A DNA stretch of 64,000 nucleotides, taken from assembly GCF_004843725.1 (NCBI RefSeq), contig NZ_CP039451.1, forward strand, positions 928,501-992,500, given 5' to 3'. This document shows, piece by piece, positions 28,189 through 60,633 of the stretch. Below the pieces are notes generated by a model, which saw nothing but the letters and a program-made list of their open reading frames with translations, did no database searches and was not told the DNA's origin. The position numbers and the translations under genes are program-made. Origin of the DNA: Psychroserpens sp. NJDZ02 (GTDB lineage Bacteria; Bacteroidota; Bacteroidia; Flavobacteriales; Flavobacteriaceae). Numbering within the stretch: position 1 is the first letter of the stretch; each line of letters starts with the position of its first letter.

Positions 28189-28201
28189 GTTGTAAAACAT
28201 T

Positions 28202-28597
28202 ATGAAAAAAATTCTGTACATATTAATAATATTCTGTTTCGGATTTAAATGCGCTGATAAAAATTGCGGTTTGAATAACGGAAAATATAAAGTTATTTAT
28301 GACAAACAGTTTTCTGACTATCCAAAATTTGAGTTTGAAATAGTCGGACAAAACTTAACCGAAATAAACTCTGAATTAAATCGTAGCTATCAGATTGAAA
28401 GTCTTGGAGAGAATTCTTTTAGGTTAAAATCTCTTGAAAAACAAAAAGACTCGTTGACTGAATTTCAAAAAATGTTAACCTCAAATGGAAAACCATATTA
28501 TGAGATTACGAATTGTAAAAATGATACAATTGATTTTACATTGCGAGTGAACTTGCACGTGATTTCACATTCTGGAAAATTTGTACGAATAAAATGA
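28202..28597 (+). CDS. Putative lipoprotein, cassette 1 gene a
   Basis: A 131-residue protein beginning MKKILYILIIFCFGFKCADK, a hydrophobic signal with a possible lipobox ending at Cys-17 (FGFKC). The rest is a small domain of mixed strands without a motif I recognise. It starts 4 nt after the first core repeat and its stop overlaps the next start (ATGA), so the two genes form a bicistronic cassette. Function unknown. Confidence 0.7.
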   Translation: MKKILYILIIFCFGFKCADKNCGLNNGKYKVIYDKQFSDYPKFEFEIVGQNLTEINSELNRSYQIESLGENSFRLKSLEKQKDSLTEFQKMLTSNGKPYYEITNCKNDTIDFTLRVNLHVISHSGKFVRIK

Positions 28598-29103
28598 ACA
28601 AAAATGTTTTGACAATCATATTGACTTTAATTAGTTTTTTGACTTTTGGACAAGAAACCGAACTGAATACGATTGAATTGGATAGTATTTACGTCCGAGC
28701 ATTAAATAACAGATTTGATCTTTTACTTTCAAGCGGTTGGAAATATGTAGAACTGAATGAAAACGGAAAACGAATTTCCAAACTGAATGTATCTGACCGA
28801 TACAAATTCCTGACTAATGGAGAACTAATTGACTTATCAATTAAAGAAAAAAAGACAATTCGAGTTTTGCGTCTGACTCATAAAATAATCGGAATTGACA
28901 CAGTTGACGTGAATTTTGGAATTGTAAATATTACTGGAAAACGGAAAATTCATTTCAATAATGGTCTGAAATTTAAAAAGGCAGATTTTGCATTAGAATG
29001 TGGCGGAACAAATGGCTACGTTCCTGATATGAGATTTATATTTGACCAAAAGAAAAATAATTGGGAATTAACAGATGGAAAATATAAAATTCCGAGTGAA
29101 TAA
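28594..29103 (+). CDS. Secreted protein of unknown function, cassette 1 gene b
   Basis: Length is 169 residues. The first 20 (MNKNVLTIILTLISFLTFGQ) are a typical flavobacterial signal peptide ending in FGQ. No recognised domain. It is coupled to the preceding gene by a 4-nt overlap and ends 5 nt before the inverse core GTTTTACA at 29109. Confidence 0.65.
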   Translation: MNKNVLTIILTLISFLTFGQETELNTIELDSIYVRALNNRFDLLLSSGWKYVELNENGKRISKLNVSDRYKFLTNGELIDLSIKEKKTIRVLRLTHKIIGIDTVDVNFGIVNITGKRKIHFNNGLKFKKADFALECGGTNGYVPDMRFIFDQKKNNWELTDGKYKIPSE

Positions 29104-29116
29104 AAAACGTTTTACA

Positions 29117-30968
29117 ATCGAGTAGACGGCTCCGACTAAAATAGCCGGAGTGCGCCTCTCACACCACCGCACGTACGGGTCTCGTATACGGCGGTTCACC
29201 AAATTGAAGTTTGCGTATTATTAATATAATCTAACAAAGGTTTATACCCTTTTCGTTTAAGCCTAGAAGTTGTGATAGTAGTCTTTAAAATAGGACTTTG
29301 AGCTACTGCCCAACCTCCCATTCTGGTTCTACTCCAAGCATAAGCTTGTCCTGCCTCTACACCTAATTGAATCAAGTTTTTACGCTTGCGTTCTAGTTTC
29401 TTCCAATCATGCCAAATACAATAGCGTAATCGATTTCTTAACCATTCATCTAGCTTTTTACTTTTTGCATAGATGTTTGTTAAGCGATAATTAGTCATCC
29501 AGCCTCGGCAGACTTGGTTAAGCCGTTCAAGACGTTCTAACAACGACATCGGTTTGGTTTTCTTGGTGATACTTTTTAGATTACGTTTAAACTTTGCCCA
29601 ACTGTTCTTAGCTACCACTAATGCATATTGTCCTTTCACTCCCTTTTTATAAACGGGCACAAAACCATGTCCGAGTAACTCAAAATTTACAGGTCTACGC
29701 AGCCCACTTTTGGCTTTATTTATAGGTAATTTAAGTCTGTCTCTTAAAAAGACAAACAGTTTGTTTCCTATTTGTTTCGCCTCGCTTTTACTTTTAGCGT
29801 AAACGCTAAAATCATCAGCATAGCGCACATAACGCAAGCCCATACTTTTCATTTCTTTGTCCAGTACATCTAACATAATATTAGATAATAAAGGACTTAT
29901 TGGACTGCCTTGCGGGATTCCTTTTCTGCGCTTTTTGAGTCTTCCATTTATTAAAATGGGAACTCTTAGCCATTTTCGGATTAACCGTAAGGTGGTTGGA
30001 CATTTTACCTTGTGGTAAATAAGTTGTAGTAAAATACAGTGGTCTACTTGATCAAAGAATCCTTTTAAATCAATATCTACAATATCTTGGTAACCTGAAT
30101 TGATATACGTTTGAGCTTGTAGTACTGCTTTTTGGATGTTCTTTTGTGGGCGGAAGCCGTAACTAACGGGTTCAAAATCATACTCAAAATGAACCATTAA
30201 TTGCTGACTTACCGCCTGTTGTAGCCACCTATCTACTACCGTGGGTATTCCTAAAAGTCTAGTTTTACCTTGTCCTTTTGGAATGCTTACCCCTAATATT
30301 GGTTTTGGAGTATAGCGGTTTTCTCGAATGGTGGATAGCACTATTGAACGGTTTTCTAATATATATTTAGAAAGCTTCGTTGTTTTCATACCATCTACAC
30401 CGCTCGCACCTTTATTGCGCTCCACTTGTCGTGTTGCTTTATAAAGGTTTGTTGCTGCTAATACGTTTTCAATCATAGGGTTAATAATACGTGTACTCCT
30501 GTTGCTCTAAAACTAGGCTAGCTAAGCATCCTAATCGAATGACAACGTAATTTAATGTTCAGTCCTTCCTTACTTGTGAGACCTATGGGGGTTTCCCAAC
30601 TCGTTTCCTGTAAGTACTATGACTTCTGCTGACTTCTCCAAATAGTCAACTCGTAACTTTGGAGACCTCCCCAGGTAATGGCATCTTCTTTCACTCAATC
30701 ACTGCCGTATCTACATAATTACCCTTTTAGCACTATTTGGGCGTTACAATGATGTGCTTGCTTACCCGAATAACTATGCCTCTGTATACGATTTCTGTTC
30801 GTCAGTACCGAGTTTTGTAGTCTCGCTTCCTTCAGATAAAACCTCACGGTTTTCACCCTTGCGACTTACTAATGCTTCAAGACGTTACTCCTGCGCATAA
30901 GGGACTTGCACCCTCTAGATTAATTATCTACCTTTAGGTAAATAAAAAGATGCCCATGCTGGGCACAC
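29117..30968 (-). mobile_element. Group II intron A (group IIC-attC type) with reverse transcriptase, 1852 bp
   Basis: On the minus strand it starts GTGTGCCCAGCATGGGCATC and ends CTACTCGAT. Domain V lies at about 29155-29197 and domain VI at about 29117-29154. The exon junction is TTGTGT|intron|TGTAAAA-like on the bottom strand of an attC-like site, opposite to cassette transcription. This is the known habit of group IIC introns that target integron attC sites. The 5' RNA domains occupy 30477-30968. It holds the only reverse transcriptase of the six copies. Confidence 0.9.
29196..30476 (-). CDS. ltrA: Group II intron reverse transcriptase/maturase
   Basis: A 426-residue intron-encoded protein. 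RT blocks are visible: GASGVDGMKT (RT2 region), RLLGIPTVVDRWLQQAV, FFDQVDH, the catalytic RYADDFSVYAKS and LLGHGFVPV. A maturase (X) region follows. The C-terminus lacks an HNH endonuclease, as usual for group IIC. The stop codon (TGA) overlaps the first bases of domain V. It promotes splicing of its own intron and copies it into new sites. It may also serve the five ORF-less copies in trans (inference). Confidence 0.95.
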   Translation of the reverse strand: MIENVLAATNLYKATRQVERNKGASGVDGMKTTKLSKYILENRSIVLSTIRENRYTPKPILGVSIPKGQGKTRLLGIPTVVDRWLQQAVSQQLMVHFEYDFEPVSYGFRPQKNIQKAVLQAQTYINSGYQDIVDIDLKGFFDQVDHCILLQLIYHKVKCPTTLRLIRKWLRVPILINGRLKKRRKGIPQGSPISPLLSNIMLDVLDKEMKSMGLRYVRYADDFSVYAKSKSEAKQIGNKLFVFLRDRLKLPINKAKSGLRRPVNFELLGHGFVPVYKKGVKGQYALVVAKNSWAKFKRNLKSITKKTKPMSLLERLERLNQVCRGWMTNYRLTNIYAKSKKLDEWLRNRLRYCIWHDWKKLERKRKNLIQLGVEAGQAYAWSRTRMGGWAVAQSPILKTTITTSRLKRKGYKPLLDYINNTQTSIW

Positions 30969-31097
30969 ACACCGTATATAATTTATTGCTGGCTTCTCGC
31001 CTACTTACGAAAGTCCTCGCGGACTTTCTTGGTTGGTAATTATTTACTAAATTAGTTGCTTGAAACACGCAACAAATCATATACAACAACGTTAGCT

Positions 31098-31347
31098 ACT
31101 ATAACTCGGAAAAATTACCAAACGGAATTCCACCAAACTTTACGCTGAAAAAACCACTTAAAATCTGAATTAGATAATGCGGAATCATTTACTCGAATTC
31201 GGAATATACTCTTGCGGAATATAGCCAGTTACGGAATAGTCACTCAAACGGAATTTTAAAAAAACATAATCACTTTGCGGACTTCACTCAGAAATAATCT
31301 TTTTATGCAGAATATATAAAATGTGCTTACTCAAATGTCTCGTAACA
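31098..31347 (+). other. Cassette 2 body: no gene seen, repeated CGGAAT-like motif
   Basis: The 250 bp between core GTTAGCTAC (31091) and its inverse GTAGCTAAC (31348) contain no ORF longer than about 15 codons beginning with ATG. CGGAAT or a close variant recurs about seven times at irregular 12-30 nt spacing. It could be an RNA, a regulatory cassette or a decayed gene. Confidence 0.6.
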
Positions 31348-31484
31348 GTAGCTAACAATGCATAAAAAAAATTGCTATATTTAGAACTAATTTTAAAAGT
31401 CGTTGCACTTTTGCTACTTCTGATTTTCCTACGGAAAATCCTCGCACGCAAAAACGCAACTCTTTTTATACAAGACCGTTACCC
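31348..31484 (+). other. attC-like site 2 (137 bp, uninterrupted)
   Basis: Left inverse core GTAGCTAAC (31348-31356), right core GTTACCC (31478-31484). The arms GCATAAAAAAAATTGC and GCAACTCTTTTTATAC pair; a central stem TTTTCC-tac-GGAAAA follows the pattern of the other short sites. This is one of the two cleanest copies. Confidence 0.85.
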
Positions 31485-31512
31485 AACATTAAAAAACATA
31501 TCGAAATAGAAT

Positions 31513-32034
31513 ATGCTAAAGAAAATTTTTGACGATATTGGTATGACAGAAACTCTTGGTTTTATTGCTATTTGCGTTCTAGGTGTTTTGTATTTCTATT
31601 TTAATCCATCAATTGTAAAAGAATCTGAAATTCAGATTGTGAATATAAAATTGTCTGTAAAACCCGAATTCTCAAAAGCAACTACAGAAATTGCTGCTTA
31701 TCTGAAATTGATTGACAACGATTATGAACAAAATTTTGAATTAAAAGATTGTTCTTTAAGCCTCATAAACAAAAAAGAACTTTTGAACCTTGATGTTGGA
31801 GATAATTTAAGAATTACAGCTAAGGCAAGTGATTTAAATTCAGGAAAAACATATGTGAATAATTATATCTCTGTTTACGGAATCGAGTTACCAAAAGGGA
31901 GAAAAATATTAGACATTAAAGACTATAATTCTTGTAAAAAAAATAGTTGGAAAAAATTCAAAACAATTGGAGTTGTTTTTTTAGTAATTCTAATTATTGG
32001 ATTGATAAAAAAAAGAATAAAAAACGTTGGGTAA
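31513..32034 (+). CDS. Membrane protein of unknown function, cassette 3
   Basis: Length is 173 residues. One membrane segment near residues 14-31 (LGFIAICVLGVLYFYF) and a second near 148-165 (IGVVFLVILIIGLI) bracket a 110-residue extracytoplasmic or cytoplasmic domain without known motif. The start is 29 nt after the core GTTACCCAACATT. The stop TAA lies inside the inverse core GTTGGGTAAC, so the recombination site forms the end of the gene. Confidence 0.7.
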   Translation: MLKKIFDDIGMTETLGFIAICVLGVLYFYFNPSIVKESEIQIVNIKLSVKPEFSKATTEIAAYLKLIDNDYEQNFELKDCSLSLINKKELLNLDVGDNLRITAKASDLNSGKTYVNNYISVYGIELPKGRKILDIKDYNSCKKNSWKKFKTIGVVFLVILIIGLIKKRIKNVG

Positions 32035-32223
32035 CACGGTTTATAAAACATAGCTAATAAGTGCTAAACCGAAAGGTTTGAGTTTTATTTGCTGAGACCG
32101 CCAAATTTTTAATTTGGCTTTAAAACTGAAAAGTTAAATCAAAATATAAAAAATTAGCTCTGTGCTAAATCCAAAATGTAGTATCTTTTTGCACGCTACG
32201 TTTCATACACTGAGCCGTTAGCA
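32026..32223 (+). other. attC-like site 3 (198 bp, long class, uninterrupted)
   Basis: Left inverse core GTTGGGTAAC (32026-32035), right core GTTAGCA (32217-32223). Arms: TTTATAAAACATAGCTAATA inside the left end and CGTTTCATACACTGAGCC before the right core. It includes the inner palindrome CCAAATTTTTAATTTGG shared with sites 7 and 9. Confidence 0.8.
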
Positions 32224-32600
32224 ACAAGTGTGTAAATCAGCAAACTAAGTTTTTAAGCCAAAGTTTATTGTCTATTTAAAAAGGGGAATTCAGGTTGGTA
32301 CGCTCTGAAAAAAATATATTCTTTTACCACATGTTTAATCAAAAAAGACAAACATATTAATTCTGAATTTTGGCTTGCCCGAAGTCGATTTTTGCATCGA
32401 AAATTTTAGCAAAAAGATCGCTTTTAGCTTTTTATAAAATAGCTAAACTCTGAGTTTGATTATAACAGAATCTAATCTTTACGGCTGAATATTATGAAAA
32501 TGGATTTTCCCCGGTTTGTTTTTAAAGACAACAACTTAGAAAACCAAAGGACAAAGCTGAATTTTAAAAAAACAGAAAGCTGAATAACGGAATTAAACCA
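32224..32600 (+). other. Cassette 4 body: no convincing gene
   Basis: About 377 bp between core GTTAGCAAC (32217) and its inverse GTTGCTAAC (32601). The longest plus-strand ATG frame is about 29 codons (about 32494-32583, MKMDFPRFVFKDNNL...). No longer frame is seen on either strand. It may be a small peptide, an RNA or a decayed cassette. Confidence 0.55.
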
Positions 32601-32737
32601 GTTGCTAACACCGCGCATAATTAATATGCTTGGTTTTTATTGTCGTGAAATTCTGCCGAATTTCACTAATGGTTAGTTTTTATTTGCTAAATTAGTGGCT
32701 TAACGTCGCATACTAATCATGCACAAACACGTTGGCT
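32601..32737 (+). other. attC-like site 4 (137 bp, uninterrupted)
   Basis: Left inverse core GTTGCTAAC (32601-32609), right core GTTGGCT (32731-32737). The arms GCGCATAATTAATATGC and GCATACTAATCATGC pair. Confidence 0.85.
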
Positions 32738-32757
32738 ACAATTAAAAAAAATCAAGA

Positions 32758-33708
32758 ATGAAGACAAAATTTAATTTATTAATATTTTTAATACTTATTT
32801 CTCAATCAATCTATTCTCAGAAATCTGAAATGCCAAAAGAGCAAAAAGATTATATTCTTTCAATGAAATTTGAAATGACACAAGATTTATTTAAAAAACC
32901 TAAATATGATTTTAAAAGTCAAAATTTAGACTTTGATAAAAAATTTTTAAAATCAAACAAGACAAAGGAGTCAATTATTTCAAGTATAAAACATCTTGAA
33001 CAAAACTCTAAACTTGAAATAAAAAATGAGCGAACAAAAAGTATAGAATTACGTTCAAGTTTTCCTAAAAATTTTGTTCAAGAAGAATTTCAAGTTATTT
33101 CTATTAAAATAGCAGAAACTAACTTATTTGGTAACAATAATATTCCATTGAAAACAATGAAATCGGAATCAACTTCCTTTAATGGTTTAAATATTATTCA
33201 ATCTAATCAATTAAGTTTTGATTCTGAATTTGATAAAAATTTAACAGGAGAAGTTTCTTATAATGTAAAATTTATTACAAATTATTCCAAAGAAAAAATA
33301 TCAAAAATTGATATCGGAAAAACTATAGAATTAAGTGGAAACGAATATAAAATTATTGACATATACGAAAATAAAATAGTCTTAAAATCTAACTTAGATG
33401 AAAAACTAACGATAGATGATATAAAAGTTAAATGTATTAATCTCAATAAAAATGGGAAAATGGAATTAGTATCTGACACTTTTAATATGTCATCAAGTCT
33501 AATTGACGAAAAAATATATAAACTTTTTAAAGACGATAAAGATTTAAGTCTTGACAATTACAAAAGTAACTTTTCATTTGAAACAGTAATGAACGAAGAA
33601 CTAATAGGAAAATATATTATTATGGAATTACCTGCGCCTATTGAAAATGAAATAATACTTTATGAACCAATTTATGGAGTTAATGAAAAAATAACAGTAA
33701 AACTGTAG
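32758..33708 (+). CDS. Secreted protein of unknown function, cassette 5
   Basis: A 316-residue protein with signal peptide MKTKFNLLIFLILISQSIYS-Q. The mature part is rich in Lys, Asn and Ser with predicted strands and has no motif I recognise. The start is 21 nt after the core GTTGGCTACAATT. The stop (TAG) falls within the inverse core GTAGCCAAC at 33705. Confidence 0.65.
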   Translation: MKTKFNLLIFLILISQSIYSQKSEMPKEQKDYILSMKFEMTQDLFKKPKYDFKSQNLDFDKKFLKSNKTKESIISSIKHLEQNSKLEIKNERTKSIELRSSFPKNFVQEEFQVISIKIAETNLFGNNNIPLKTMKSESTSFNGLNIIQSNQLSFDSEFDKNLTGEVSYNVKFITNYSKEKISKIDIGKTIELSGNEYKIIDIYENKIVLKSNLDEKLTIDDIKVKCINLNKNGKMELVSDTFNMSSSLIDEKIYKLFKDDKDLSLDNYKSNFSFETVMNEELIGKYIIMELPAPIENEIILYEPIYGVNEKITVKL

Positions 33709-33717
33709 CCAACACCG

Positions 33718-35419
33718 GTAACCGTTGCACAACCCCTTAAAAAAGCATAAAAACAGCTTAAAATCTTTGATTTTAAGCTGTTTTTAATTTTAATATGCCA
33801 TACTTTCTCTAAAATGCAAGTGGCTTAAAACATAGTATTCGAAGGCTTATTAGGTGGTTTTTGGTGCTTTTAATAAAAGCAAGTAGTCCTGCTATACTTT
33901 CTGGTAAGTTTTTCATATATTTTAAATACTTTTTAAGATTATAGGCTGTTGCGGATAGATGCATACATTTATTAGCTTGTTTAATCCCAAGGGTATTCAC
34001 TTTTCCCATGCCTAAAAACTGGGTTAATGTACCAAATACAGGCTCTACCGTGCTTTGTCGTTTTCCTTTCATATAGCTTCCTTTTTTACTGTCAACTCGT
34101 GCTATATTCCGTAGGTATTCTGCGCGGTAATACGTTACGGAAAATGACTTTTCTTGTGCCGTTTTGCTTAAACAAGCGCTTCGTATTGGGCAATCTATAC
34201 AAAGTTTTTTTGAACCTCTATAGGCCTTCTTTTTGGTGTTGTTCTTCTTTTCGTAAAACACCTTTTTAAAGGGAATAATTTTCCCTTGAGGGCAGGTGTA
34301 GTGGTCTTCTTTTTCATTATAAATAAATTCATCTGGCCCTCCTTTAAAGGTGCCGTGTGGCGGAATGTAACTGGTAATATCCTGCTTTTCTAAAAAAGCA
34401 TAATTCTCGCCACTACTGTAACCAGTATCCGCGAGACAGGTGTCTATGGTAAGACCAGATTGCCATAAGCGTCGTTTTACACGCAATACAATATCTGGTA
34501 AATGCTGACTGTCTTTGCCATCGGCATGATAGGCCTTGATATCACTTATTACATGATGTGCGGCATCTACCGTGAGTTGACTTGAATAGTTTAGCTTTCT
34601 TGCTTTTCCTGGTTTTACACTTATGCGAGCATCGGGATCGGTTGGACTATAATGCGTTTTATTACTCGTATAACGTGAGCCTTTATTTCCTGCTCCAGGA
34701 CGATGGTTTTGATCTTTTGACCATTTTTTGTTTCGGCTTTTTATCGCTTGTAATTCCTGACGGCTTGCTGATAATTCTTGTTGCAATTTTGGGGCTTTAT
34801 TAACTTTGGCTGATCGAAGTGGCACTGCTTTATCTCTATTGCTTATATGTCGTAAGGCGCGTAAATGAGCCTCTAAATCTTCCTCTGGTACTTTAAGCTC
34901 TAAACTATCCATCGAAGCGTTTGCTTTTACAGGTGCGGCGTCGATAACTTGGGTATGACCACTTACCATATGCATGTCTACGCACATTTTGAAAACATGA
35001 GTAAATAGATTTTCAAAAACTGACTCTGGGTACAGTTGATGTGTTCTACTTAACGTAGAATGCCATGGTAATTCTTCATCGATATCATAGCCAAGAAAAT
35101 ACAGAATATCCAGTCGAAGACTACAATGTAACACCAATTTTCTATCGCTGGTGATATTCTCTAAATAACCAACTAAACAGAATTTGAAAAACACCACGGG
35201 ATCTAAACTTTTTTGTCCACAGTTTCCGTAATAGATTTTTGTTTGATTCCGTAGAAATTCTAAGTCTAAAATTTCTGATAATCGTCTATAAAAATTGTCT
35301 TGGGGAACCCGACGACTCAACTGGAAATTGTTGAATAATTTCTCTTGATATATTTTTGTGCCTTGCATTATTAAATATACGAAATTTCTATATCTTTAAC
35401 AACACGTTGTGCAACAGGC
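33718..35419 (-). mobile_element. IS1182-family insertion sequence, complete copy (1702 bp)
   Basis: The ends carry the inverted string GTTGCACAAC (left GTAACCGTTGCACAACCCC; right, read inward, GCCTGTTGCACAACGTG). ACACCG flanks both sides (33712-33717 and 35420-35425) and looks like a target duplication. It holds one transposase gene on the minus strand. The left-end hairpin AAAAACAGCTTAAAATC...GATTTTAAGCTGTTTTT also occurs in the decayed copies at 51083, 53276, 56389 and 60634. Confidence 0.85.
33809..35368 (-). CDS. IS1182-family DDE transposase
   Basis: Length is 519 residues, normal for the family. Likely catalytic residues are Asp in TQVIDAAPVKANASM, Asp in TCLADTGYSSGENY and Glu in STVEPVFGTLTQFLGM. 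Between them lies the cysteine cluster CPQGK...CIDCPIRSACLSK. The frame is intact, so the element may be active. Confidence 0.93.
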   Translation of the reverse strand: MQGTKIYQEKLFNNFQLSRRVPQDNFYRRLSEILDLEFLRNQTKIYYGNCGQKSLDPVVFFKFCLVGYLENITSDRKLVLHCSLRLDILYFLGYDIDEELPWHSTLSRTHQLYPESVFENLFTHVFKMCVDMHMVSGHTQVIDAAPVKANASMDSLELKVPEEDLEAHLRALRHISNRDKAVPLRSAKVNKAPKLQQELSASRQELQAIKSRNKKWSKDQNHRPGAGNKGSRYTSNKTHYSPTDPDARISVKPGKARKLNYSSQLTVDAAHHVISDIKAYHADGKDSQHLPDIVLRVKRRLWQSGLTIDTCLADTGYSSGENYAFLEKQDITSYIPPHGTFKGGPDEFIYNEKEDHYTCPQGKIIPFKKVFYEKKNNTKKKAYRGSKKLCIDCPIRSACLSKTAQEKSFSVTYYRAEYLRNIARVDSKKGSYMKGKRQSTVEPVFGTLTQFLGMGKVNTLGIKQANKCMHLSATAYNLKKYLKYMKNLPESIAGLLAFIKSTKNHLISLRILCFKPLAF

Positions 35420-35564
35420 ACACCGTGTATAATTAATTGCTTTGTAAGTGCTCATCTGGAATATTCCTTCGGAATATTCTCAGGTTCGTAAAAGTTTACT
35501 AAATTAGTTGCTAAACCACGCAACTAACCATACACATCAACGTTACCTTCCATAACAATACAAA

Positions 35565-36299
35565 ATGAAAATAACTGCTTTAACTTTAGGTTTTCTTTTA
35601 TTAACTAATTTCTCTTTCTCTCAAATTAAGAAAAAGGAATTAAACGGAGTATGGAAAACGGATAAAAGATTGTTTTCTAAAACCGACACTATTAAATTTT
35701 ATTCAAATATAAAAAGTTGTTTTCAAACGGAATGGTCAATTGAAAAGGGAAAAATTAAGACAAACGAATTAAATATTTGTACTGAACCAAATCGAATAAA
35801 GAGAATTGTTGGTGAAGAAAAAATTAAATTTAAAAAAAAAGATTTCGGACAAATAATAGAATATTACCATAATGGAATTTTAACTAACAAATTCCGAATT
35901 ATTGAACTGAATAAAAAAAATGAGTCAGAACTCAAGCTTATGCACTTTGACAAACTGACTGAACAAAAATTATATAAATATGTAGATTCTTTAGTTATAA
36001 AAGTATTGAAATACAATCCAATAGAATATATTAATATTGCGAATCTTTCACCTTCTAGAAGACATTTTCGACTTTGTGGAGACCCCACTCCTCCAGAACC
36101 TTCAATCATTGTCAATGGCTATCTATTAAAAAATAGAGAACCTTTAAAAGAACTATTATTAGCAGAAACTTATGACATTACTTATATGACCAAGGAAAAA
36201 TCAGCAATGATTTATGGAACGAAAGGAGTAAGTGGAGTGATTATATTAAATACATCTGAAAGACGATATAAAAAAGTCAGAAAAAAATACGGCAGGTAA
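35565..36299 (+). CDS. Secreted protein with a TonB-plug-like C-terminus, cassette 6
   Basis: Length is 244 residues. Signal peptide MKITALTLGFLLLTNFSFSQ. Residues 25-110 look like a small lipocalin-like sheet domain (LNGVWKTDKRLFSKTDTIKFYSN...). The C-terminal 70 residues (PSIIVNGYLLKNREPL...DITYMTKEKSAMIYGTKGVSGVIILNT) resemble the plug motif of SusC/TonB-dependent receptors (YGxxGxxGVIxIxT), but there is no barrel. The stop TAA lies in the inverse core GGCAGGTAAC. Function unknown. Confidence 0.7.
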   Translation: MKITALTLGFLLLTNFSFSQIKKKELNGVWKTDKRLFSKTDTIKFYSNIKSCFQTEWSIEKGKIKTNELNICTEPNRIKRIVGEEKIKFKKKDFGQIIEYYHNGILTNKFRIIELNKKNESELKLMHFDKLTEQKLYKYVDSLVIKVLKYNPIEYINIANLSPSRRHFRLCGDPTPPEPSIIVNGYLLKNREPLKELLLAETYDITYMTKEKSAMIYGTKGVSGVIILNTSERRYKKVRKKYGR

Positions 36300-36917
36300 T
36301 CGAGTAGACGGCTCCGACTAAAATAGCCGGAGTGCGCCTCTCACACCACCGTACATACGGGTCTCGTATACGGCGGTTCGTAAATCATCACGCCAAAGCT
36401 CTTTTCACCCTTGACACTATCTTCTAATTTAGGCATAGGCTACCACTAGTGCTCCTATGCGAATTTTGAAGAGAATTACGTTCAGTCCTTCCTTACTTGT
36501 GAGACCTTCTGAGGTATTGCCTCAACTCGTTTCCTGTAAGTACTATGACTTCTGCTGACTTCTCCATATAGTCAACTCGTAACTTTGGAGACCTCCCCAG
36601 GTAATGGCATCCTCTTTCACTGAATCACTGCCGTATCTACATAGTTACCCTTTTGTTACTGTTTGGGCGTTACAATGATGTGCTTGCTTACCCGAATAAT
36701 TATGCCTCTGTATACGATTTCTGTTCGTCAGTACCGAGTTTTGTAGTGGTATTTGCTCATTAATCAATCACAAATAGCCTTCAGATAAAACCTCACGGTT
36801 TTCACCCTTGCGACTTACTAATGCTTCAAGACGTTACTCCTGCGCATAAGGGACTTGCACCCTCTAGATTAATTATTTACCTTTAGGTAAATTAAAAGAT
36901 GCCCATGCTGGGCACAC
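36299..36917 (-). mobile_element. Group II intron B, ORF-less (619 bp)
   Basis: Same ends (GTGTGCCC ... CTCGAT on the minus strand), domains V/VI and 5' domains as intron A. The domain IV region, where A carries the reverse transcriptase, is replaced by about 100 bp (about 36380-36485) shared by copies B-F. It therefore is not a recent deletion of copy A. Confidence 0.88.
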
Positions 36918-37074
36918 ACACCGTATATAATTTATTGCTAGCTTCTCGCCTACTTTCGAAAGTCCTCGCGAACTTTCTTGGTCGGTAATTATTTACTAAA
37001 TTAGTTGCTTGAAACACGCAACAAACCATATACGTATTCCAAGGTCAAAACCTAATTATTTAAAGACCTTTTTA

Positions 37075-38294: not shown

Positions 38295-38353
38295 AACAAC
38301 GTTGGCAATAATTTTGACTCGTCCTGAAATAAGGCTACATAATTTTAAACATT

Positions 38354-49992: not shown

Positions 49993-50008
49993 ATAATTAA
50001 AACAAAAA

Positions 50009-51067: not shown

Positions 51068-51068
51068 C

Positions 51069-51082
51069 TATGTACAACACCG
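51069..51082 (+). other. attC-like site 11, left end only
   Basis: TATGTACAAC, the reverse complement of the cassette start GTTGTACATA, followed by ACCG. The rest of the site is replaced by IS remnants, so cassettes 11 and 12 no longer share a functional site. Confidence 0.65.
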
Positions 51083-52290: not shown

Positions 52291-52426
52291 GCCACACAAC
52301 ACCGTATAAAAATAATTGCGGTTTAGTGTTTAATCAATAGTCGTTGCGTGTTTGTAACGACTGATTTTCCTGCGGAAAATCCTCGCATACAAACACGCAC
52401 CTATTCTTATACGAACAACGTTGGCA
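52291..52426 (+). other. attC-like site 12 (136 bp, uninterrupted)
   Basis: Left GCCACACAAC (52291-52300), right core GTTGGCA (52420-52426). The arms ACCGTATAAAAATAATTGC and GCACCTATTCTTATACG pair closely, with an inner TTTTCC-tgc-GGAAAA stem. Confidence 0.85.
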
Positions 52427-52448
52427 ACAATTTGAAAAAACTCTCATA

Positions 52449-53255
52449 ATGAAATATAAATTATTCTTTTTATTTTTATTTATTCTTCAAATAGTATTTT
52501 CTCAACAATACGATTCTGTTTTAATAGAACAAGATAGCGTTGACTTAAATAATCAAGTTTATAAAATTGGAAATGTTTATGTTTTTGATTACGAAATAAT
52601 TGAAAATAATATTACAAAAAAACTCAAAACAAATTCAGAAGGTGATTTTGAATTAGTTCAGAAAGAGCATGACTCTATAGGCGTGGACAAAATTCATTTG
52701 ATAATAAGACCGACAGATGATGACTCAAGGACTAACGAAAATCAAACCCAAATATCATATTTACAAGGACCTGAATTTAGTTCTTTCTCGTCAACAGGAG
52801 CAGTTGATAATTCAGAAAATGTATGGATTCACCCAATTAGAAGTGGATTTTTTAGTTCCTTAGAGACTTGCCCATTTCCCTATATTAAAAAACCTTTACA
52901 AGTTGGTGCACAATGGAAAGATGCGATGTTAATTGGAGAAGGTTGGGGAAATAAATTATGGGGCAAGTGGATTGGACAATTATTACTTAATTACAGTTAT
53001 AAAATAACTGGTAAAGAAAAACTAAATACTGAATTCGGAGAAGTAGAATGCTTTATCGTTGAAAGCCAAGCTGACTCAGAATTAGGTTCAACTAAACTAA
53101 AAAGCTTTTATTCTGATATTTATGGTTTTATTCGATTGGAATATGTTCTTTTAACTGGTATAGAAGTAAATATGTGGGTTATTGACTTTAAGGAAAATAA
53201 TGAGTTTAACGACACTAGGACATTTTTCATAACAAAGAAATATATTAAACAATAA
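52449..53255 (+). CDS. Secreted protein of unknown function, cassette 13
   Basis: Length is 268 residues with signal peptide MKYKLFFLFLFILQIVFSQ. Trp- and Gly-rich middle (GAQWKDAMLIGEGWGNKLWGKWIGQLLLNYSYKITGKEKLNTEFGEVECFIVESQ) resembles the repeated pattern of periplasmic DUF3108-like or lipid-handling sheets, but I cannot name the family. Cassette start GTTGGCAACAA is matched by CTGTTGTCAAC after the gene with one change. Confidence 0.62.
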   Translation: MKYKLFFLFLFILQIVFSQQYDSVLIEQDSVDLNNQVYKIGNVYVFDYEIIENNITKKLKTNSEGDFELVQKEHDSIGVDKIHLIIRPTDDDSRTNENQTQISYLQGPEFSSFSSTGAVDNSENVWIHPIRSGFFSSLETCPFPYIKKPLQVGAQWKDAMLIGEGWGNKLWGKWIGQLLLNYSYKITGKEKLNTEFGEVECFIVESQADSELGSTKLKSFYSDIYGFIRLEYVLLTGIEVNMWVIDFKENNEFNDTRTFFITKKYIKQ

Positions 53256-53260
53256 AAAAA

Positions 53261-53275
53261 CTGTTGTCAACACCG
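53261..53275 (+). other. attC-like site 13, left end only
   Basis: CTGTTGTCAAC plus ACCG (with ACACCG at 53270-53275) stands where the IS1182-family remnant begins. The right part of the site is lost. Confidence 0.6.
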
Positions 53276-53951: not shown

Positions 53952-54917
53952 ATGAAAAAAATACTATTTATAACAATCTCATTGTTTTTGATAAACAATG
54001 TTCATTCTCAAGACAAAAAAAAGTATAAAGAATATATGCCGTTTAAGCATAATAACCTCTGGGGGATTGTTGATTCTACTCAAAAAACCATAATAGAGCC
54101 TAAATATAATGATATTAGACTTTTAGGCGAATTAGATTATGTTTCTTTTGATGATGAATTAATTTTTGATTTAGAAAAGGGAACTCAACAAAAATCTCCA
54201 GGAACGTTTCAAACTGAAATTTTTGTAAACAAACAACGGTTTTATCTATTTAACAATGGAGATATCTCACTTTTAATAGACCTGAAAAATAATGAAAAAA
54301 TAGCATTATCGCTTAAATACTCCAACTTTGAAAATGTAATACTAACTAATCCTAATTCTGGCATTGAAAATGAATTCATAATTGGCCAATTAGATTACGA
54401 CAGCTATATATTATTAAAAAATAATAAAAAATTACCTTCCGTTATCTCAGGAAAAATTAGTGAACCAGGTTTATTAGTTGATGAATCATCCAATAAAAAC
54501 GTTTATTTCACTGCAATTAAGAACTCAAAAACATATGTATACAACACGAATTTAAAAATAGTAAACACCTTTTTGAACAAAGAAAAACTACAAGAAAATC
54601 TAGGGATTTTAGCAAAAAAAACAAACAGTGATGGATTAAGGCAAGAATGCTTCTCCTGTCACGAAACAATGGGTAATCGCAGTTTTCCCGAAGACCCATT
54701 ACTGCCTGAAATATTTGAAGTTTCATATAAATCAAATCGTCTTAGTGTCGTTTATAAAAACAAAGAAGGTAAAGAAATAGAAGTTAATCCCTATGACACT
54801 TTTGAAAAAGGTTGTGGGTATTTGGATGGTGTAACCTTTGGTAAAAATCTGATTTTTACAGACCTCAACTATGTTAGACCAAAAAAACTAATGTTTCCAA
54901 AAGAATATTTAGATTAA
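53952..54917 (+). CDS. Secreted WG-repeat-like protein with one CxxCH motif, cassette 14
   Basis: Length is 321 residues with signal peptide MKKILFITISLFLINNVHSQ. NNLWGIVDSTQKTIIEPKYNDI is one WG (KWG) beta-hairpin repeat; later repeats are weak. ECFSCHETMG near residue 233 contains CxxCH, which can bind haem c, but only once and without a cytochrome fold, so this may be chance. Its cassette core was removed by composite remnant 2. Confidence 0.62.
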   Translation: MKKILFITISLFLINNVHSQDKKKYKEYMPFKHNNLWGIVDSTQKTIIEPKYNDIRLLGELDYVSFDDELIFDLEKGTQQKSPGTFQTEIFVNKQRFYLFNNGDISLLIDLKNNEKIALSLKYSNFENVILTNPNSGIENEFIIGQLDYDSYILLKNNKKLPSVISGKISEPGLLVDESSNKNVYFTAIKNSKTYVYNTNLKIVNTFLNKEKLQENLGILAKKTNSDGLRQECFSCHETMGNRSFPEDPLLPEIFEVSYKSNRLSVVYKNKEGKEIEVNPYDTFEKGCGYLDGVTFGKNLIFTDLNYVRPKKLMFPKEYLD

Positions 54918-55042: not shown

Positions 55043-55880
55043 CTACAAATCGAGTAGACGGCTCCGACTAAAATAGTCGGAGTGCGCCTCTCACACCACC
55101 GTACGTACATAACTACGTTGGTCCTTTCGTATCTATTGCGACTAGCAATACAACTCAGGAACGTATACGGCGGTTCGTAAATCATCACACCAAAAGGCTT
55201 TTCTCCCTTGGTACTATCTTCTAATTTAGGCATAGGCTACCACTAGTGCTCTTATGCGAATTTTGAAGAGAATTAAGTTCAGTCCTTCCTTACTTGTGAG
55301 ACCGTCGGAGGCATTGCATCTCCTCGTTTCCTTCAAGTACTATGACCTCTGCTGACTGCTCCAAATAGTCAATTGGTAACTTTCGAGACCTCCCCAGGTA
55401 ATAGCATCCTCTTTCACTCAATCACTCCCGTATCTACATAATTACCCTTTTGGTACCGTTTGGGCGTTACAAAGGTGTGCTTCCTTACCCAAACAATTAT
55501 GCCTCTGTATACGATTTCTGTTCGTCAGTACCGAGTTTTGTAGTCTCGCTTCCTTCAGATAAAACCTCACGGTTTTCACCCTTGCGACTTACTAATGCTT
55601 CAAGACGTTACTCCTGCGCATAAGGGACTTGCACCCTCTAGATTAATTATCTACCTTTAGGTAAATAAAAAGATGCCCATGCTGGGCACACACAATGGCT
55701 ATAGTTAATACGGGTTTTAGTTTTAATTCAAAGTTTAGTGTGTTTTTATAAAGTCCGCCAAATCTTTTGATTTGGCTTTAGAACAAAAAAGATAAAACAA
55801 AATAGAAAGTTTTGGCTAAGTGCTTAACTCGAAATTAATCGCTTTTAATTCCCGTACTAACCATAGCCGAGACGTTAGCA
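55043..55880 (+). other. attC-like site 14 (about 195 bp without intron F, long class)
   Basis: Left CTACAA (55043-55048) completed by ACAATGG after the intron (55692); right core GTTAGCA (55874-55880). The paired arms AATGGCTATAGTTAATACGGG and CCCGTACTAACCATAGCCG are near perfect. The left core cannot be checked against its cassette start, which is lost. Confidence 0.75.
55049..55691 (-). mobile_element. Group II intron F, ORF-less, with altered domain V (643 bp)
   Basis: It has the same ends as the other copies. The domain V tip, ACGGGTCTCGTATACGG elsewhere, is interrupted by about 40 extra bases (about 55108-55160, ACATAACTACGTTGGTCC...). There are more scattered changes than in other copies (for example GGTACCGTTTGGG). 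It is probably the oldest copy and may not splice. Confidence 0.85.
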
Positions 55881-55903
55881 AATATTCAAAAAAAACAAAT
55901 ATA

Positions 55904-56359
55904 ATGAACCAAGAATTTAAAATTAAAGAAAATGGATTTTCTGAAATAAGTAAGCCTATAATTCTGAAAATAGCACTAATATTAGCAACTATACTTATTG
56001 TTGTTTTAGGAATAAAATCAAAAGGTTTTACTACAAAAATAGATACACTTATAGTTGTGGCTCCAATAGTAATTGGAATTTTCTCTTTAATTGTTTTTTT
56101 AGCAATGAAAAGAGTTAAAAAACAATTTGAAAGTTTCGTCCTAATAATCAATAAAAACGAAATTAGTAGAGAGCAACTTTATATTAAAAAAACTTCAATA
56201 CCAATAGACAAAATTAAATCTATTTCCATCAATGAGAGAAAAGGGCTGACTATTCAAGGAGAAAGTAGTTTACCACAAGAAATGATTTTAATACCAAAAG
56301 AAATTGAAGATTTCGAAAAAGTAAAAGAATTATTATCAGAAATATACCCTATGAAGTAA
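55904..56359 (+). CDS. Two-TM protein with PH-like C-terminal domain, cassette 15
   Basis: Length is 151 residues from the ATG at 55904 (MNQEFKIKENGFSEIS). An upstream frame from 55820 would lie in the attC-like site. Two membrane segments (ILKIALILATILIVVLG, about 21-37; LIVVAPIVIGIFSLIVFLA, about 49-67) are followed by a small beta domain (FESFVLIINKNEISREQLYIKKTSIPIDKIKSISI) like bacterial PH/YdbT domains. Function unknown. Cassette start GTTAGCAAATATT matches ACATTTGCTAAC after the gene. Confidence 0.68.
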   Translation: MNQEFKIKENGFSEISKPIILKIALILATILIVVLGIKSKGFTTKIDTLIVVAPIVIGIFSLIVFLAMKRVKKQFESFVLIINKNEISREQLYIKKTSIPIDKIKSISINERKGLTIQGESSLPQEMILIPKEIEDFEKVKELLSEIYPMK

Positions 56360-56375
56360 AGATGAAATAAAAACA

Positions 56376-56388
56376 TTTGCTAACAATG
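56376..56388 (+). other. attC-like site 15, left end only
   Basis: TTTGCTAAC plus AATG, the inverse of the cassette 15 start, cut at the same place as sites 11 and 13 by an IS1182-family remnant. Confidence 0.6.
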
Positions 56389-56892: not shown

Positions 56893-59800
56893 ATGCTACA
56901 AAAAAAAATGCTTTTACCTCTTATTACACTTTTGCTATCTTGTAATATAGGTTTTGGTCAAGATAAAATGACCTTAATAGACCTAATTTACAACGATAAA
57001 TATGAAGAAGCTAAAGCTTTAATTAAGGAGAAAAAATATATTAACCAAATAGACGAAGACGGTGGAACTGCATTTATGTGGGCGATCTACAAAAACCAGC
57101 TAGATATTGCCAAACTTCTTAAAATAAACGGAGCCAAAGTCCATAAAAAAGACATTTTATATGACGATAATTGGGATTTAGCTGTTGGAAGCCCATTAAC
57201 TGTTGCTGCTTTAAATGCAGATTTAGACATGATTAAATTTCTTGTATTGGATTGTGGCATCAAAGCAAATGACAGAGAATTAGACTCCAATGGTAACTTA
57301 GCTTGGAACGCCATGTTCTACTTAGCTTACCGAAATGACTTTGAAGAAATTGCTGATTTTTTGATTAAAAAAGGTGCAGATATCAACTTAAAGGATTCAG
57401 ACAAAAAATCGCCTTTATCTTACGCATTTACAAACGAAAACTACAACTACACGAGATACCTTTTAAATAAAAATGCTAAAAGTATTTTTGTGGATGCTCA
57501 AGGTAGAACAGAGGCTACTTTTGCTATTTCGTGCGGAGAAACTGAAACTGCTAAAAAGCTTTTATTGAAGTCTCCTGATTTAATACATAAAAACGAGAAA
57601 TTGTATGCCAACCCTTTGTGTGTTGCAATTATTAATGAGGATGAGAATATGGTAGCATGGCTACTACAAAATGGCGCAAACAAAAAAGTGCCTTTAAATT
57701 TTGTAGCCTCTATTTTTAAAGAAGCAGCATTAAAAGAAAGTTATGGTACTTATTCTCTTTTGAAAAAGTATATTTTAAATAATGATTTAGCAAACCCAAC
57801 TTTAATACCAAGTGATACTTTAAAAAAAATTATACAAACAACATATAACCCTGCTATTTTTAAAATGTTGCTGAACAATAACTTTAAGGTAACCGGAAAT
57901 GGTGAAGATATTTATACTAAAAACAAATACGAAAGCATAAGACAACTAAACAATAAAATACGAATTTTAGAGGAGTATGGTATTCAAATACCAATTATAG
58001 ACTCAATTACTTCTCCTTTCTTCCAAAAAACTCTCAAAAACAAAAAGTTTAATAACTCAATTTTTGAACATGTTTCTAAAACCAAAACACCCGACAGTGA
58101 GTTTTATTATGATGTACTTGCTGCTGCAATCCATAACAACAATATAACTGCTTTTAATTCTGTTTTTGATAAAAAAGTAACATTAGAACCTCAAAAGGTT
58201 TATAAAAACTCCAATTTTCTTTGGATGGCTTTTAAAGACGAGAACTTACTTTTATTTAAAAAACTGTTAGAAAACGGTAGAGATACAGAATTTTTATTTG
58301 AAGAAAACAAAACACTCTTACATAGAATCATAACAAGTGATAGACATCAAGACTGTAGTTATTTGCCATTTATAGAAGTATTATTAGACTATGGTGCTAA
58401 TATAGATGCTATTGATAATGAAGGAAATACAGCCCTACATTTATCTAACAAAGATTGTATTGATAAGTTGTTAATTCGTTATGGTGCAGATGTTAGTGCT
58501 ACAAATAACAAAGAAGATTCCCCTTCTAAAAACACCTATTTATATGCTGGCGACATTCTCGATTTCACCCACACCAAAGAACCTCAAAAATTGGTAGACA
58601 TCTTTAATTTTACCGTAGATAAATATCTTACCCAAAATAGCGTTACCAATTTTACTCCTATTTTAAAAAGTATTTTAAAACGAGGTATTAATCTTAAGGA
58701 TAAAGAGACCATTGCCAAAATTAATCTCAATATTATTTCTTTGGCAAAATCTACCAAACATTTTAATTACTTTAATAAACTACAAAAATTATTAGATACT
58801 CATAGTAAAGGTTACAAAGTCCCTGGTTTAGATCTTATATTGATTAATAAATTGGCGGAAGATTCCAAAATACCAAAATCTATAACCCAAATAATCTTAG
58901 ATGATAATTTACCTCAATTTAAAAGTAAGGTTCAATCGTTAGATTTGTCTGAAGTAGATTATAATGATGATGATGCTATGCGTATATTTTTAGCCTTAGC
59001 TGCACAGGCAAAGTCTAACAAAATTGTTATGCACCTTATAAAAGAAGGCATCAATCCTTTTAACCAAAAAATAATACCTTATAGTTCATACCCAGGTAGT
59101 AAACTAGACATCCTTCAAACTCTTGTAGATAAAAAAAATCTGCAAGCTGTAAAGTACGCTCTAAACACTGAAAACGCTTCGAGTAGTTATGATATAATGA
59201 ACAATTATGTAATTATCTGTGAGTTGGAAAATGAGAAATTTGTAAAAGAGTATTTAGACCATTATTTAAAAAAAGAATCTTATTTAATAAAATCTTTTAA
59301 GACAAATGGAGATTACATTTATAAATTGAATCTTGGTGTTGTTAGAAACAACCTTTGGGGCGTGTTAGAATACCTATCCGAAAAAGGAATTTCAATGGAA
59401 AAAGCCATAGAAACAAGCGTTAATCGTTCTGGATGGACACATAAATTAAATACACTATTAATTTTAGAAGAAAAAATAGACTTTATTAAGTATTACTTAA
59501 ACAAATGTGATAAGAAACAGTATCTATCACTTATAAATCAATACAGTAAGTATATTATAAAAAATAACAGCACTAAAATAATAGACCTGTTTGCTCCTTA
59601 TATAATGAAGAACGAATCAAACTCCAGTAAATTTTACAGCAACGAAGAAATGATTCATGGGTACTATACATATGCGATACTCTATGACAATAAATATGCT
59701 ATGGATGCAATGCTTAAAATACACCCGAAAGAAAAATCTAAAAAACTAATTAGACACCTTAAAGAAGCAATAGATTACTCTAATTATAACTTCATCTCTT

Positions 59801-60564
59801 CTTACTACGACAATGAGTTTGATATGTCTATAAAATTATCTACCAGAGGAAAACATCATGCAGGAACTGGTGATACGGGTATGATTGAATATGCCATTCA
59901 AACGAACAGACCTGATATGATTCCTTTTTTATTAGAGTGCGATGTAACGCTTGACAACCCCGCAAACAACAGTAACAGCCCTGTTAAATATGCTGCAGAA
60001 ACTTACAATACAAAACTTATAGAAACAATACTAAATTTTGATGTAAACCCAAATATAATTGCCACACATTATTTTGAACCGTATATACATTTTTACAACA
60101 AACCATGGTCTCAAATACTTATAGACAGAGGGTTTGAAAAAGGTTTTGAAGCTTTTTGGAAAAAGGGAGTAAATCCAAATATTAATTATCAAAAAAATAA
60201 CCTTTTGCATACTATGGTTAAGAACGATTATGATTTTACAGAGAATGCTCCAGACATTTTAAATAAGATAACAAATATTAATCAGCAAAATAACTACGGA
60301 GAAACAGCTTTATTTTTAGCTTGTAAAACAGGAAATATAAAACTTGTAAAAGCATTATTAGATAAAAATGCAGATACTAATATTGCTAATAATCAACATG
60401 TAACTCCATTAATGATTGCATCATTTTCTAATCACTTAAAAATAACAGAAGTACTTATTAATTCAAAAGCAATAGTAGAAAGCGTTGATAATAAAAATAG
60501 AAATGCGCTAATGTATGCAGAGCTCGGAAATGCAAGAGAGGTGATTAGCTTTCTAAAGAAATAG
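56893..60564 (+). CDS. Large ankyrin-repeat lipoprotein or secreted protein, cassette 16
   Basis: Length is 1223 residues. The N-terminus MLQKKMLLPLITLLLSCNIGFGQ is a signal with either a lipobox (LLSC) or a plain cleavage after FGQ. Ankyrin repeats are clear near the start (GGTAFMWAIYKNQLDIAKLLKINGAKV; KSPLSYAFTNENYNYTRYLL), in the middle (NIDAIDNEGNTALHLSNKDCIDKLLIRYGADV) and at the end (NNYGETALFLACKTGNIKLVKALLDKNAD; HVTPLMIASFSNHLKITEVLIN); the rest is degenerate repeats. It is a protein-binding scaffold with no catalytic motif. At 3.7 kb it is very large for a cassette gene. Confidence 0.8.
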   Translation: MLQKKMLLPLITLLLSCNIGFGQDKMTLIDLIYNDKYEEAKALIKEKKYINQIDEDGGTAFMWAIYKNQLDIAKLLKINGAKVHKKDILYDDNWDLAVGSPLTVAALNADLDMIKFLVLDCGIKANDRELDSNGNLAWNAMFYLAYRNDFEEIADFLIKKGADINLKDSDKKSPLSYAFTNENYNYTRYLLNKNAKSIFVDAQGRTEATFAISCGETETAKKLLLKSPDLIHKNEKLYANPLCVAIINEDENMVAWLLQNGANKKVPLNFVASIFKEAALKESYGTYSLLKKYILNNDLANPTLIPSDTLKKIIQTTYNPAIFKMLLNNNFKVTGNGEDIYTKNKYESIRQLNNKIRILEEYGIQIPIIDSITSPFFQKTLKNKKFNNSIFEHVSKTKTPDSEFYYDVLAAAIHNNNITAFNSVFDKKVTLEPQKVYKNSNFLWMAFKDENLLLFKKLLENGRDTEFLFEENKTLLHRIITSDRHQDCSYLPFIEVLLDYGANIDAIDNEGNTALHLSNKDCIDKLLIRYGADVSATNNKEDSPSKNTYLYAGDILDFTHTKEPQKLVDIFNFTVDKYLTQNSVTNFTPILKSILKRGINLKDKETIAKINLNIISLAKSTKHFNYFNKLQKLLDTHSKGYKVPGLDLILINKLAEDSKIPKSITQIILDDNLPQFKSKVQSLDLSEVDYNDDDAMRIFLALAAQAKSNKIVMHLIKEGINPFNQKIIPYSSYPGSKLDILQTLVDKKNLQAVKYALNTENASSSYDIMNNYVIICELENEKFVKEYLDHYLKKESYLIKSFKTNGDYIYKLNLGVVRNNLWGVLEYLSEKGISMEKAIETSVNRSGWTHKLNTLLILEEKIDFIKYYLNKCDKKQYLSLINQYSKYIIKNNSTKIIDLFAPYIMKNESNSSKFYSNEEMIHGYYTYAILYDNKYAMDAMLKIHPKEKSKKLIRHLKEAIDYSNYNFISSYYDNEFDMSIKLSTRGKHHAGTGDTGMIEYAIQTNRPDMIPFLLECDVTLDNPANNSNSPVKYAAETYNTKLIETILNFDVNPNIIATHYFEPYIHFYNKPWSQILIDRGFEKGFEAFWKKGVNPNINYQKNNLLHTMVKNDYDFTENAPDILNKITNINQQNNYGETALFLACKTGNIKLVKALLDKNADTNIANNQHVTPLMIASFSNHLKITEVLINSKAIVESVDNKNRNALMYAELGNAREVISFLKK

Positions 60565-60620
60565 CGTAACAGCTGAACTATTTTTCATAATAGGTATAAA
60601 CTTCAAAAATCTAACTAACG

Positions 60621-60633
60621 TTTTGTAACATTA
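60621..60633 (+). other. attC-like site 16, left end only (right end of the array)
   Basis: TTTTGTAACATTA before the fourth IS1182-family remnant (GTAAGCGTTGCACAACGCC) occupies the same position as the left ends of sites 11, 13 and 15. The cassette start is unknown, so the core cannot be checked. Confidence 0.45.

Follow-up and report, generated by a model that had tools for sequence, protein, structure and literature searches.

What moves the gene cassettes of a flavobacterial chromosome in which no integron integrase is found? The question is raised by a cassette array in a 64,000-nucleotide stretch of the Psychroserpens sp. NJDZ02 genome (the window; contig NZ_CP039451.1, positions 928,501 to 992,500), which spans 28189 to about 60633 and whose first cassette opens with GTTGTAAAAC at 28189. 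Coordinates without a prefix are window positions, those on contig C1 refer to the organism's own genome (G000, one contig of 4.32 Mb), and G and L numbers denote genomes and loci. The original prediction had described an integron-like array without an integrase, with a distinct attC family and perhaps an integrase of its own elsewhere in the genome. We put the probability at roughly nine in ten that the array in the window belongs to an integron-like system of Bacteroidota, and that its enzyme is most likely a 393-residue tyrosine recombinase encoded at C1:1217661-1218842, 261 kb from the array. The system has its own recombinase, attI and attC families and lies outside the strict, IntI-based integrons. 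Integrons are known mainly from Proteobacteria, with 93% of the complete ones in Gammaproteobacteria, and the excerpted text on IntegronFinder 2.0 gives a single complete integron in Bacteroidetes, in Salinibacter (PMC9024848); no system of the present kind is described among the open-licence PubMed Central (PMC) titles and abstract openings listed.

The array is made of units of mostly plus-strand genes that start with GTTR and end with YAAC, lying between an engB-type GTPase gene (end at 28098) and a gene at 61009, short-chain-dehydrogenase-like as named by eye, that bounds the array region on the right. Thirteen cassettes can be read at both ends, and in every one of them the opening ten bases (GTTRNNNNNN) complement the last nine or ten of the same cassette at 8/9 to 10/10 positions, whereas 12 control pairings made over the intervening site to the next cassette agree at only 3-7 positions. 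This preference for a cassette's own end over that of the next unit is the trace expected of a circular cassette that carries its own R'' and R'. The covariance model R1, trained exclusively on sites of other genomes, locates 11 sites here, all of them on the same strand; together with the paired ends it bears out the predicted array from 28189 to about 60.6 kb. Two cassettes, C2 and C4, hold no open reading frame (ORF) of 60 amino acids (aa).

The link between array and recombinase is an 83-nt attI-like element. It overlaps the recombinase gene in its final codons, at the 3' end (G000:C1:1218796-1218878), and the same element, 89% identical, stands directly before the first cassette of the window, with the similarity stopping at GTT; hence, the window array sits at a recombinase-free copy of attI and is no orphan. 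The genome holds 28 attI copies at E<=1e-3, counting those of the window and of the recombinase, and 27 of them end in GTT, the copy at 3540932 reading GTA. Within the flanking stretches covered, a scripted search identified a first cassette at 14 of the 28, the ends pairing at 9 or 10 of 10 positions, although chance may account for a few; it passed over the first cassette of the window because an intron cuts the R'' there. Within the genus, attI matches number 17 in the sister species G005, five in G003 (two overlapping) and two short ones each in G006 and G002, and there were none in five of the ten members searched. The first cassette at the recombinase's own attI (L015:7051-9768) carries a whole BanI-type restriction-modification set (helix-turn-helix protein, RE_BanI, C5 methylase). 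Many dispersed copies (e.g. L048, L049, L050) are preceded by a conserved TACGTA-GTTC-TACGTA palindrome and a TTG..TATAAATTG stretch, neither of which occurs at the window copy or the recombinase gene; this stretch is possibly a promoter or a regulator site. A flavobacterial promoter was considered there and given up, since the spacing does not agree with the consensus, and we make no claim. At L051:900-7100 (C1:3839900-3846100) tandem modules of attI, cassette(s) and a constant stretch of about 430 nt starting with AACAAAGTACTGTGTTAAAAAC recur about five times, as counted by eye, and could be a route by which attI copies multiply.

The recombinase itself has the catalytic residues R231, K256, H320, R323, H346 and Y355 invariant across 20 aligned relatives, and matches the IntI profile on either side of the IntI-specific insertion, the insertion itself being absent. 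It has 18 residues where IntI4 has 61, and its TIGR02249 score is 195.6 bits against a cut-off of 265, so that it lacks the additional domain by which IntI is recognised. The R261-H320 spacing is 59 residues; across 103 aligned proteins, the corresponding stretch measures 101-117 in eleven IntI-like proteins, 82 in one more, and 57-67 in the remaining 91, among which are the Xer proteins. An enzyme encoded elsewhere had thus been rightly predicted, its IntI type wrongly, and a profile search found no IntI above cut-off in this genome or in 60 relatives. Quick trees, with SH-aLRT support only, place the protein outside the IntI clade. Its catalytic core is like that of XerA, XerC and XerD, and its nearest sequence neighbours in the PDB are 4a8e and 5hxy, but it differs from the Xer proteins in missing their curated cut-offs (XerA_Arch 203/220, XerC 171/335, XerD 171/330), in an extra N-terminal domain of about 77 residues, and in its linkage to attI and cassette arrays. 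The best 50 matches listed from a fold search with the whole protein are tyrosine recombinases or proteins of that fold. With the N-terminal domain only, the search gave many weak matches, SMARCAL1 HARP and XPB among them, and the top Z score fell to CASTOR1, so that the likeness to HARP and XPB is only a lead. Some close relatives are named 'site-specific tyrosine recombinase/integron integrase' in their sources; this name is the NCBIfam description attached to the XerA_Arch model and is no evidence of function. The IntI-like proteins of L120, L122 and L132 are extended at the N-terminus, with lengths of 465-495 aa if the open frame is followed. In G120, G144 and G380, several recombinase copies of about 300 aa with near-equal scores are scattered over one chromosome; they could be copies of a transposable element akin to this family.

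In congeners and other members of the family, a GTT and then cassettes come after the recombinase gene, at a distance of mostly 30-115 nt. The element 3' of the gene is of an ATATAA..AGTT type; a second subgroup has a small palindrome with GTT in its place. Cassettes follow in both cases. Chains of cassettes with paired 9-nt ends lie directly behind the gene: 15 at L020, all exact, 17 at L023 (16 exact), 12 at L027 and 16 at L035. The chain test reads alike on both strands and is therefore blind to direction, which rests on the genes, attI and the model; 72 of the 76 ORF-bearing cassettes at nine loci point one way. Each of 14 loci, picked for having chains, scores above its own 20 shuffles, with chain scores that reach 15.0 and 16.4 against a top shuffle score of 5.4 across all 14; the weakest of these loci score 4.0-5.0, below that overall maximum. 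Seven of 14 recombinase loci with several kb beyond the gene score above 5 in a filtered chain test. A wider survey took the best 80 of 589 loci, many of which stop too soon to judge, and found five downstream chains above 5.4, in Algibacter onchidii, Flavobacterium enshiense, Seonamhaeicola aphaedonensis, strain S0862 and a Rufibacter, where the chain starts 3.7 kb past the recombinase gene. Several loci with 10 kb beyond the gene (e.g. L066, L089) show no chain.

A second architecture (G010, G236, G228; L178, L179, L180) has a recombinase of 272-306 aa with neither the N-terminal domain nor the IntI insertion. Here the gene is divergent to arrays of 9, 12 and 6 chained cassettes, respectively, that begin no more than 90 nt from its start codon, and the whole-locus scores are 7.8, 11.4 and 6.2 against shuffles up to 3.6. 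A fourth candidate for such a divergent array, G243 (L181), was rejected, with a chain score of 2.2 against 2.4 in shuffles. In a divergent classical integron the cassette chain is expected upstream of the IntI gene. The Pseudoalteromonas IntI locus (L140) has its best chain there, at 5.0 (whole locus 6.2, shuffles up to 4.0), and so does a Calditrichia IntI locus, at 4.2 with no shuffle control.

The sites between cassettes are imperfect palindromes with R and L arms and a preferred bottom strand, as is required of attC. Among 129 spacers from the 14 chain loci, site lengths are stepped, with clusters near 118, 152 and 182 nt and some strays, and the bottom strand is the more stable in 103, against 45 of 132 cassette-interior controls; within the clean length classes the count is 94 of 111. 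An early count of 76/83 was discarded, as its filter leaned toward the result. The consensus fold of 38 bottom strands has 20 pairs, 14 of them with compensatory changes, and G.T pairs at fixed places (37/38, 37/38 and 29/38), where the top strand would have C.A mismatches. At the level of this consensus there is no extrahelical base, and conserved G.T pairs stand instead. The core is GTTR, as predicted, and not GTTRRRY: in 143 chain cassettes, for which GTT[AG] was imposed as a selection rule and of which some may be chance members, R stands at position 5 in 57 cases and at position 6 in 67.

The attC model matches 140 of 149 Flavobacteriaceae genomes (148 genera) and 114 of 247 genomes of the phylum, so that an array of a flavobacterial chromosome, as first described, is too narrow a frame. 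It matches none of 11 genomes holding IntI-like proteins (the twelfth, L129, being left out). The distinct attC family had been rightly predicted. Site counts are lower bounds, the best 23 (Flavobacteriaceae) or 14 (phylum) candidates per genome having been scored. Members of the recombinase family, taken as matches at E<1e-60, some of which are without the N-terminal domain, were counted in 108 Flavobacteriaceae genomes (of 149) and in 86 genomes of the phylum set (of 247). All nine attC-less Flavobacteriaceae are among the 41 that have no close recombinase (Fisher p 4.5e-6, kinship ignored), and in the phylum set attC and recombinase occur together in 67 genomes (p 1.5e-13, kinship ignored). 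G008 and G028 have at least 23 attC sites each and no family recombinase at E<1e-60.

Cassette turnover was compared between species, our genome against G005, rather than between strains. At the window locus the two species are orthologous as far as the GTT (93.5%) and once more from 60793 onwards (90.8%). The stretch enclosed by these flanks measures 32.6 kb in the window against 8.45 kb in G005, and no cassette was seen to be common to the two arrays; the 11 matching pieces of at least 150 nt (153-221 nt, 71-84%) have the length of a site or an intron. In G003, about 244 nt separate engB from the next gene, the counterpart of the one at window position 61041. At all eight clearly orthologous attI loci (563-1356 nt upstream aligned, attI similarity 0.81-1.00) the first cassette differs right from the GTT, the exact boundary that the original prediction had proposed for comparing strains, so that its check turns out positive here between species; at two of the eight a later piece matches, from 718 and 945 nt on. 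Three more pairings, located in repeat regions, likewise differ, and 7 of the 17 G005 copies lack a partner. Exchange with breakpoints at the core GTT is also seen in two intragenomic copies. Cassette C4, which stands at an attC in the window, has a copy at the attI at contig C1:29389, 99.6% identical over 538 nt from the GTT and extending about 20 nt into the following cassette; C5, likewise at an attC (32731), has one at another attI, free of mismatches for 414 nt from the GTT up to an apparent indel. One cassette has nearly the same start in three places: the G006 recombinase attI, a dispersed attI copy in G005, and the divergent array in G236, a genome of the same phylum and another class (G005 vs G236, 73% over 464 nt starting at the GTT).

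We propose that the mobile unit would be TTR...gene...R''-attC...G, excised and inserted by a cut that is presumably exactly G/TT, through a site-specific recombination that joins a double-stranded attI to attC in single-stranded form, with the bottom strand folded. The linked recombinase would catalyse the reaction, and its N-terminal domain of about 77 residues may read the folded site in place of the IntI-specific insertion. Acting in trans, one recombinase gene would serve the 28 chromosomal attI copies, and the window array would have grown at the copy behind engB.

A naive stem search gave 12 stems in the array and 4-12 in ten shuffles and failed to set the array apart; it was dropped as a site finder for the paired-ends test and the covariance model, which carry the case, palindromes by themselves being unconvincing. 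One locus runs counter to the bottom-strand bias (L093, 3/10) and L027 is partly exceptional. A more familiar account would be a cluster of attC sites lacking an integrase (CALIN), in which ordinary IntI cassettes were acquired horizontally and the integrase lost; such unlinked arrays are common, according to the excerpted text of PMC9668308, and would show the same kind of cassette ends, folded sites and GTT boundaries. We hold this to be improbable: IntI is absent above cut-off from the genome and its relatives, the core lacks RRY, the attI of the window belongs to a recombinase that is not IntI, and the attC model goes unmatched in the 11 IntI genomes, one of which (L140) has a chain above its shuffles.

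It is just as hard to credit that cassettes move in this way with the host Xer pair or an unlinked integrase as the enzyme and the linked gene as a bystander. The 32 of 140 attC-bearing Flavobacteriaceae that have no close family member make either action in trans or another enzyme conceivable, but the recombinase gene lies directly at attI in many genera and co-occurs with attC, and matches at the Xer level are found in attC-less genomes too. Least probable of all is that the palindromes are terminators or repetitive extragenic palindrome-like repeats, with gene order shuffled by homologous recombination, insertion sequences (IS) or group II introns. IS110-family, IS1182-like and group II elements do lie in or beside many sites, but cassette ends pair with their own cassette, which rules out terminators, site lengths fall in narrow classes, and cassettes change at GTT at the eight orthologous loci.

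Like integrons built on IntI, attI and attC, the archaeal ones included, this system has one-gene cassettes that for the most part point one way, some without an ORF, an attI that adjoins a tyrosine recombinase gene and receives cassettes, R''-L''-L'-R' sites with a bottom-strand folding bias, GTT boundaries, and cassette exchange between species. Unlike them, its recombinase has an extra N-terminal domain, no IntI additional domain and a place outside the IntI clade; attI lies at the 3' end of a recombinase gene co-directional with the cassettes; the core is GTTR without RRY and the consensus stem has no conserved unpaired base; and one genome carries 28 attI copies. The spirochaete integrons with reversed intI share an unusual orientation of the integrase gene to the array, as far as the excerpts of PMC9668308 go, but they carry IntI, whereas here the recombinase is of another lineage and the second subgroup is divergent as usual.

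On balance we lean towards a wider interpretation, in which a second lineage of integrons extends over Bacteroidota and is near-universal in Flavobacteriaceae, recombining folded single-stranded attC sites without the IntI domain. In its main form an N-terminal domain like those with which SMARCAL1 (HARP) and XPB read DNA structure would recognise the sites, and in some genomes one recombinase would feed tens of dispersed attI copies, making the chromosome a store of cassettes. If this is true, a cassette system has so far been missed in most of the Flavobacteriaceae examined, plausibly because searches required the additional domain through which integrases are recognised (PMC2426708, PMC8352920, both in excerpt). 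The finding would also bear on the need for that domain in folded-site recombination, on the origin of integrons from Xer-like enzymes, and on a large body of mobile genes so far unexplored, among them restriction-modification genes, one for an esterase-domain protein and many that match no Pfam family.

Features of the array region and its flanks, in window coordinates (R1, covariance model of the attC sites; R pair, agreement between the two ends of a cassette)
Feature	Position	Strand	Evidence
engB/yihA-type GTPase, left conserved flank	27469..28098	+	Pfam MMR_HSR1; match in 10/10 genus members searched
attI-like site without recombinase gene, GTT end	28109..28191	+	89% identical to recombinase-gene copy
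Cassette C1, ORFs 28202-28597 and 28594-29103 (no Pfam)	28189..29116	+	R' GTTGTAAAAC / R'' GTTTTACAA, 9/9
Group II intron, reverse transcriptase/maturase 29196-30476, in R'' arm of C1 site	29117..30968	-	RF02001; RVT_1 and GIIM; ends inferred
attC of C1, 3' part; R'' arm split off by intron	30966..31094	-	R1 90.8 bits
Cassette C2, ORF-less (60 aa)	31091..31356	+	R pair 10/10
attC of C2	31353..31481	-	R1 89.3 bits
Cassette C3, ORF 31513-32034	31478..32035	+	R pair 10/10
attC of C3, long class	32032..32220	-	R1 43.2 bits
Cassette C4, ORF-less, 393 nt	32217..32609	+	Copy at attI, contig C1:29389
attC of C4	32606..32734	-	R1 59.7 bits
Cassette C5, ORF 32758-33708	32731..33713	+	R pair; copy at another attI
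Presumed IS1182-like transposase beside R'' arm of C5 site	33809..35368	-	DDE_Tnp_1_6, DUF772
attC of C5, 3' part	35419..35545	-	R1 72.4 bits
Cassette C6, ORF 35565-36299	35542..36298	+	R pair 8/9, intron cuts arm
Group II intron copy, ORF-less	36299..36917	-	RF02001
attC of C6, then IS110-family TnpA 37075-38067 (minus)	36919..37043	-	R1 69.2 bits; Transposase_20
Cassette C7, ORF 39706-42132 (Erythro_esteras and CarbopepD_reg)	38301..42145	+	R pair 9/9
IS inside C7, ORFs 38354-38725 and 38902-39576			Judged by eye
Group II intron copy, ORF-less	42146..42787	-	RF02001
attC of C7, long class	42787..42976	-	R1 32.1 bits
Cassette C8, ORF 43004-43999	42973..44011	+	Near-identical copy in the array at the recombinase gene, L015:9967-10962, 97.5% over 1242 nt
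Group II intron copy, ORF-less	44012..44655	-	RF02001
attC of C8, then second IS110-like copy (ORF 44813-45805, by likeness to first)	44657..44781	-	R1 70.6 bits
Cassette C9, ORFs 46060-46632 and 46636-47865	46039..47877	+	R pair 8/10; site missed by R1
Cassette C10, ORF 48093-49052	48052..49245	+	R pair 8/9, intron cuts arm
Group II intron copy, ORF-less	49246..49863	-	RF02001
attC of C10	49862..49989	-	R1 78.2 bits
Cassette C11, ORF 50009-51067 (PIN_12)	49986..51078	+	R pair 10/10
Cassette ORF, cassette start lost to IS remnants (~51090-51720)	51734..52285	+	Sequence
attC, intact	52297..52423	-	R1 89.9 bits
Cassette C13, ORF 52449-53255	52420..53271	+	R pair 9/10
Cassette ORF, cassette start lost to IS remnants	53952..54917	+	Sequence
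Group II intron copy, ORF-less	55049..55690	-	RF02001
attC, long class	55689..55877	-	R1 44.9 bits
Cassette C15, ORF from 55904	55874..56384	+	R pair 10/10
Ankyrin-repeat protein, final array ORF	56893..60564	+	Ank_2
Right flank, orthology to sister species resumes	60793..64000	.	90.8% to G005

Six group II introns lie in the window (Rfam RF02001), all on the minus strand and one with a reverse transcriptase/maturase gene. Six sites are broken in the R'' arm by such an intron, with insertion at the bottom-strand GT/T in 6/6; three copies have an inferred 5' exon TTGT and the other three GTGT, and at 55049 the R'' partner is lost. Group IIC-attC introns insert in the bottom-strand R'' of attC at TTGT/T, opposite to the cassettes, as the excerpted text of PMC7923331 describes, and the window introns resemble them in strand and in the GT/T of R'', a likeness drawn from site, strand, RVT_1 and GIIM, and RF02001 only.

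The palindromes that had been predicted as recombination sites are so for the attC sites, six of them intron-split, but the strongest ones include IS-element ends, such as TAAAAACAGCTTAAAATC and similar sequences at 33748, 51113, 53306 and 56414. The element at about 33719-35420, with the transposase that we label IS1182-like, stands beside an R'' arm, with ACACCG flanking the insertion on both sides, and IS1182-like remnants occur near 51090, 53270, 56390 and 60640. Two IS110-like copies, at 37044-38300 and 44782-46038, each lie within the last part of an attC site, a placement that resembles that of the IS1111-attC elements.

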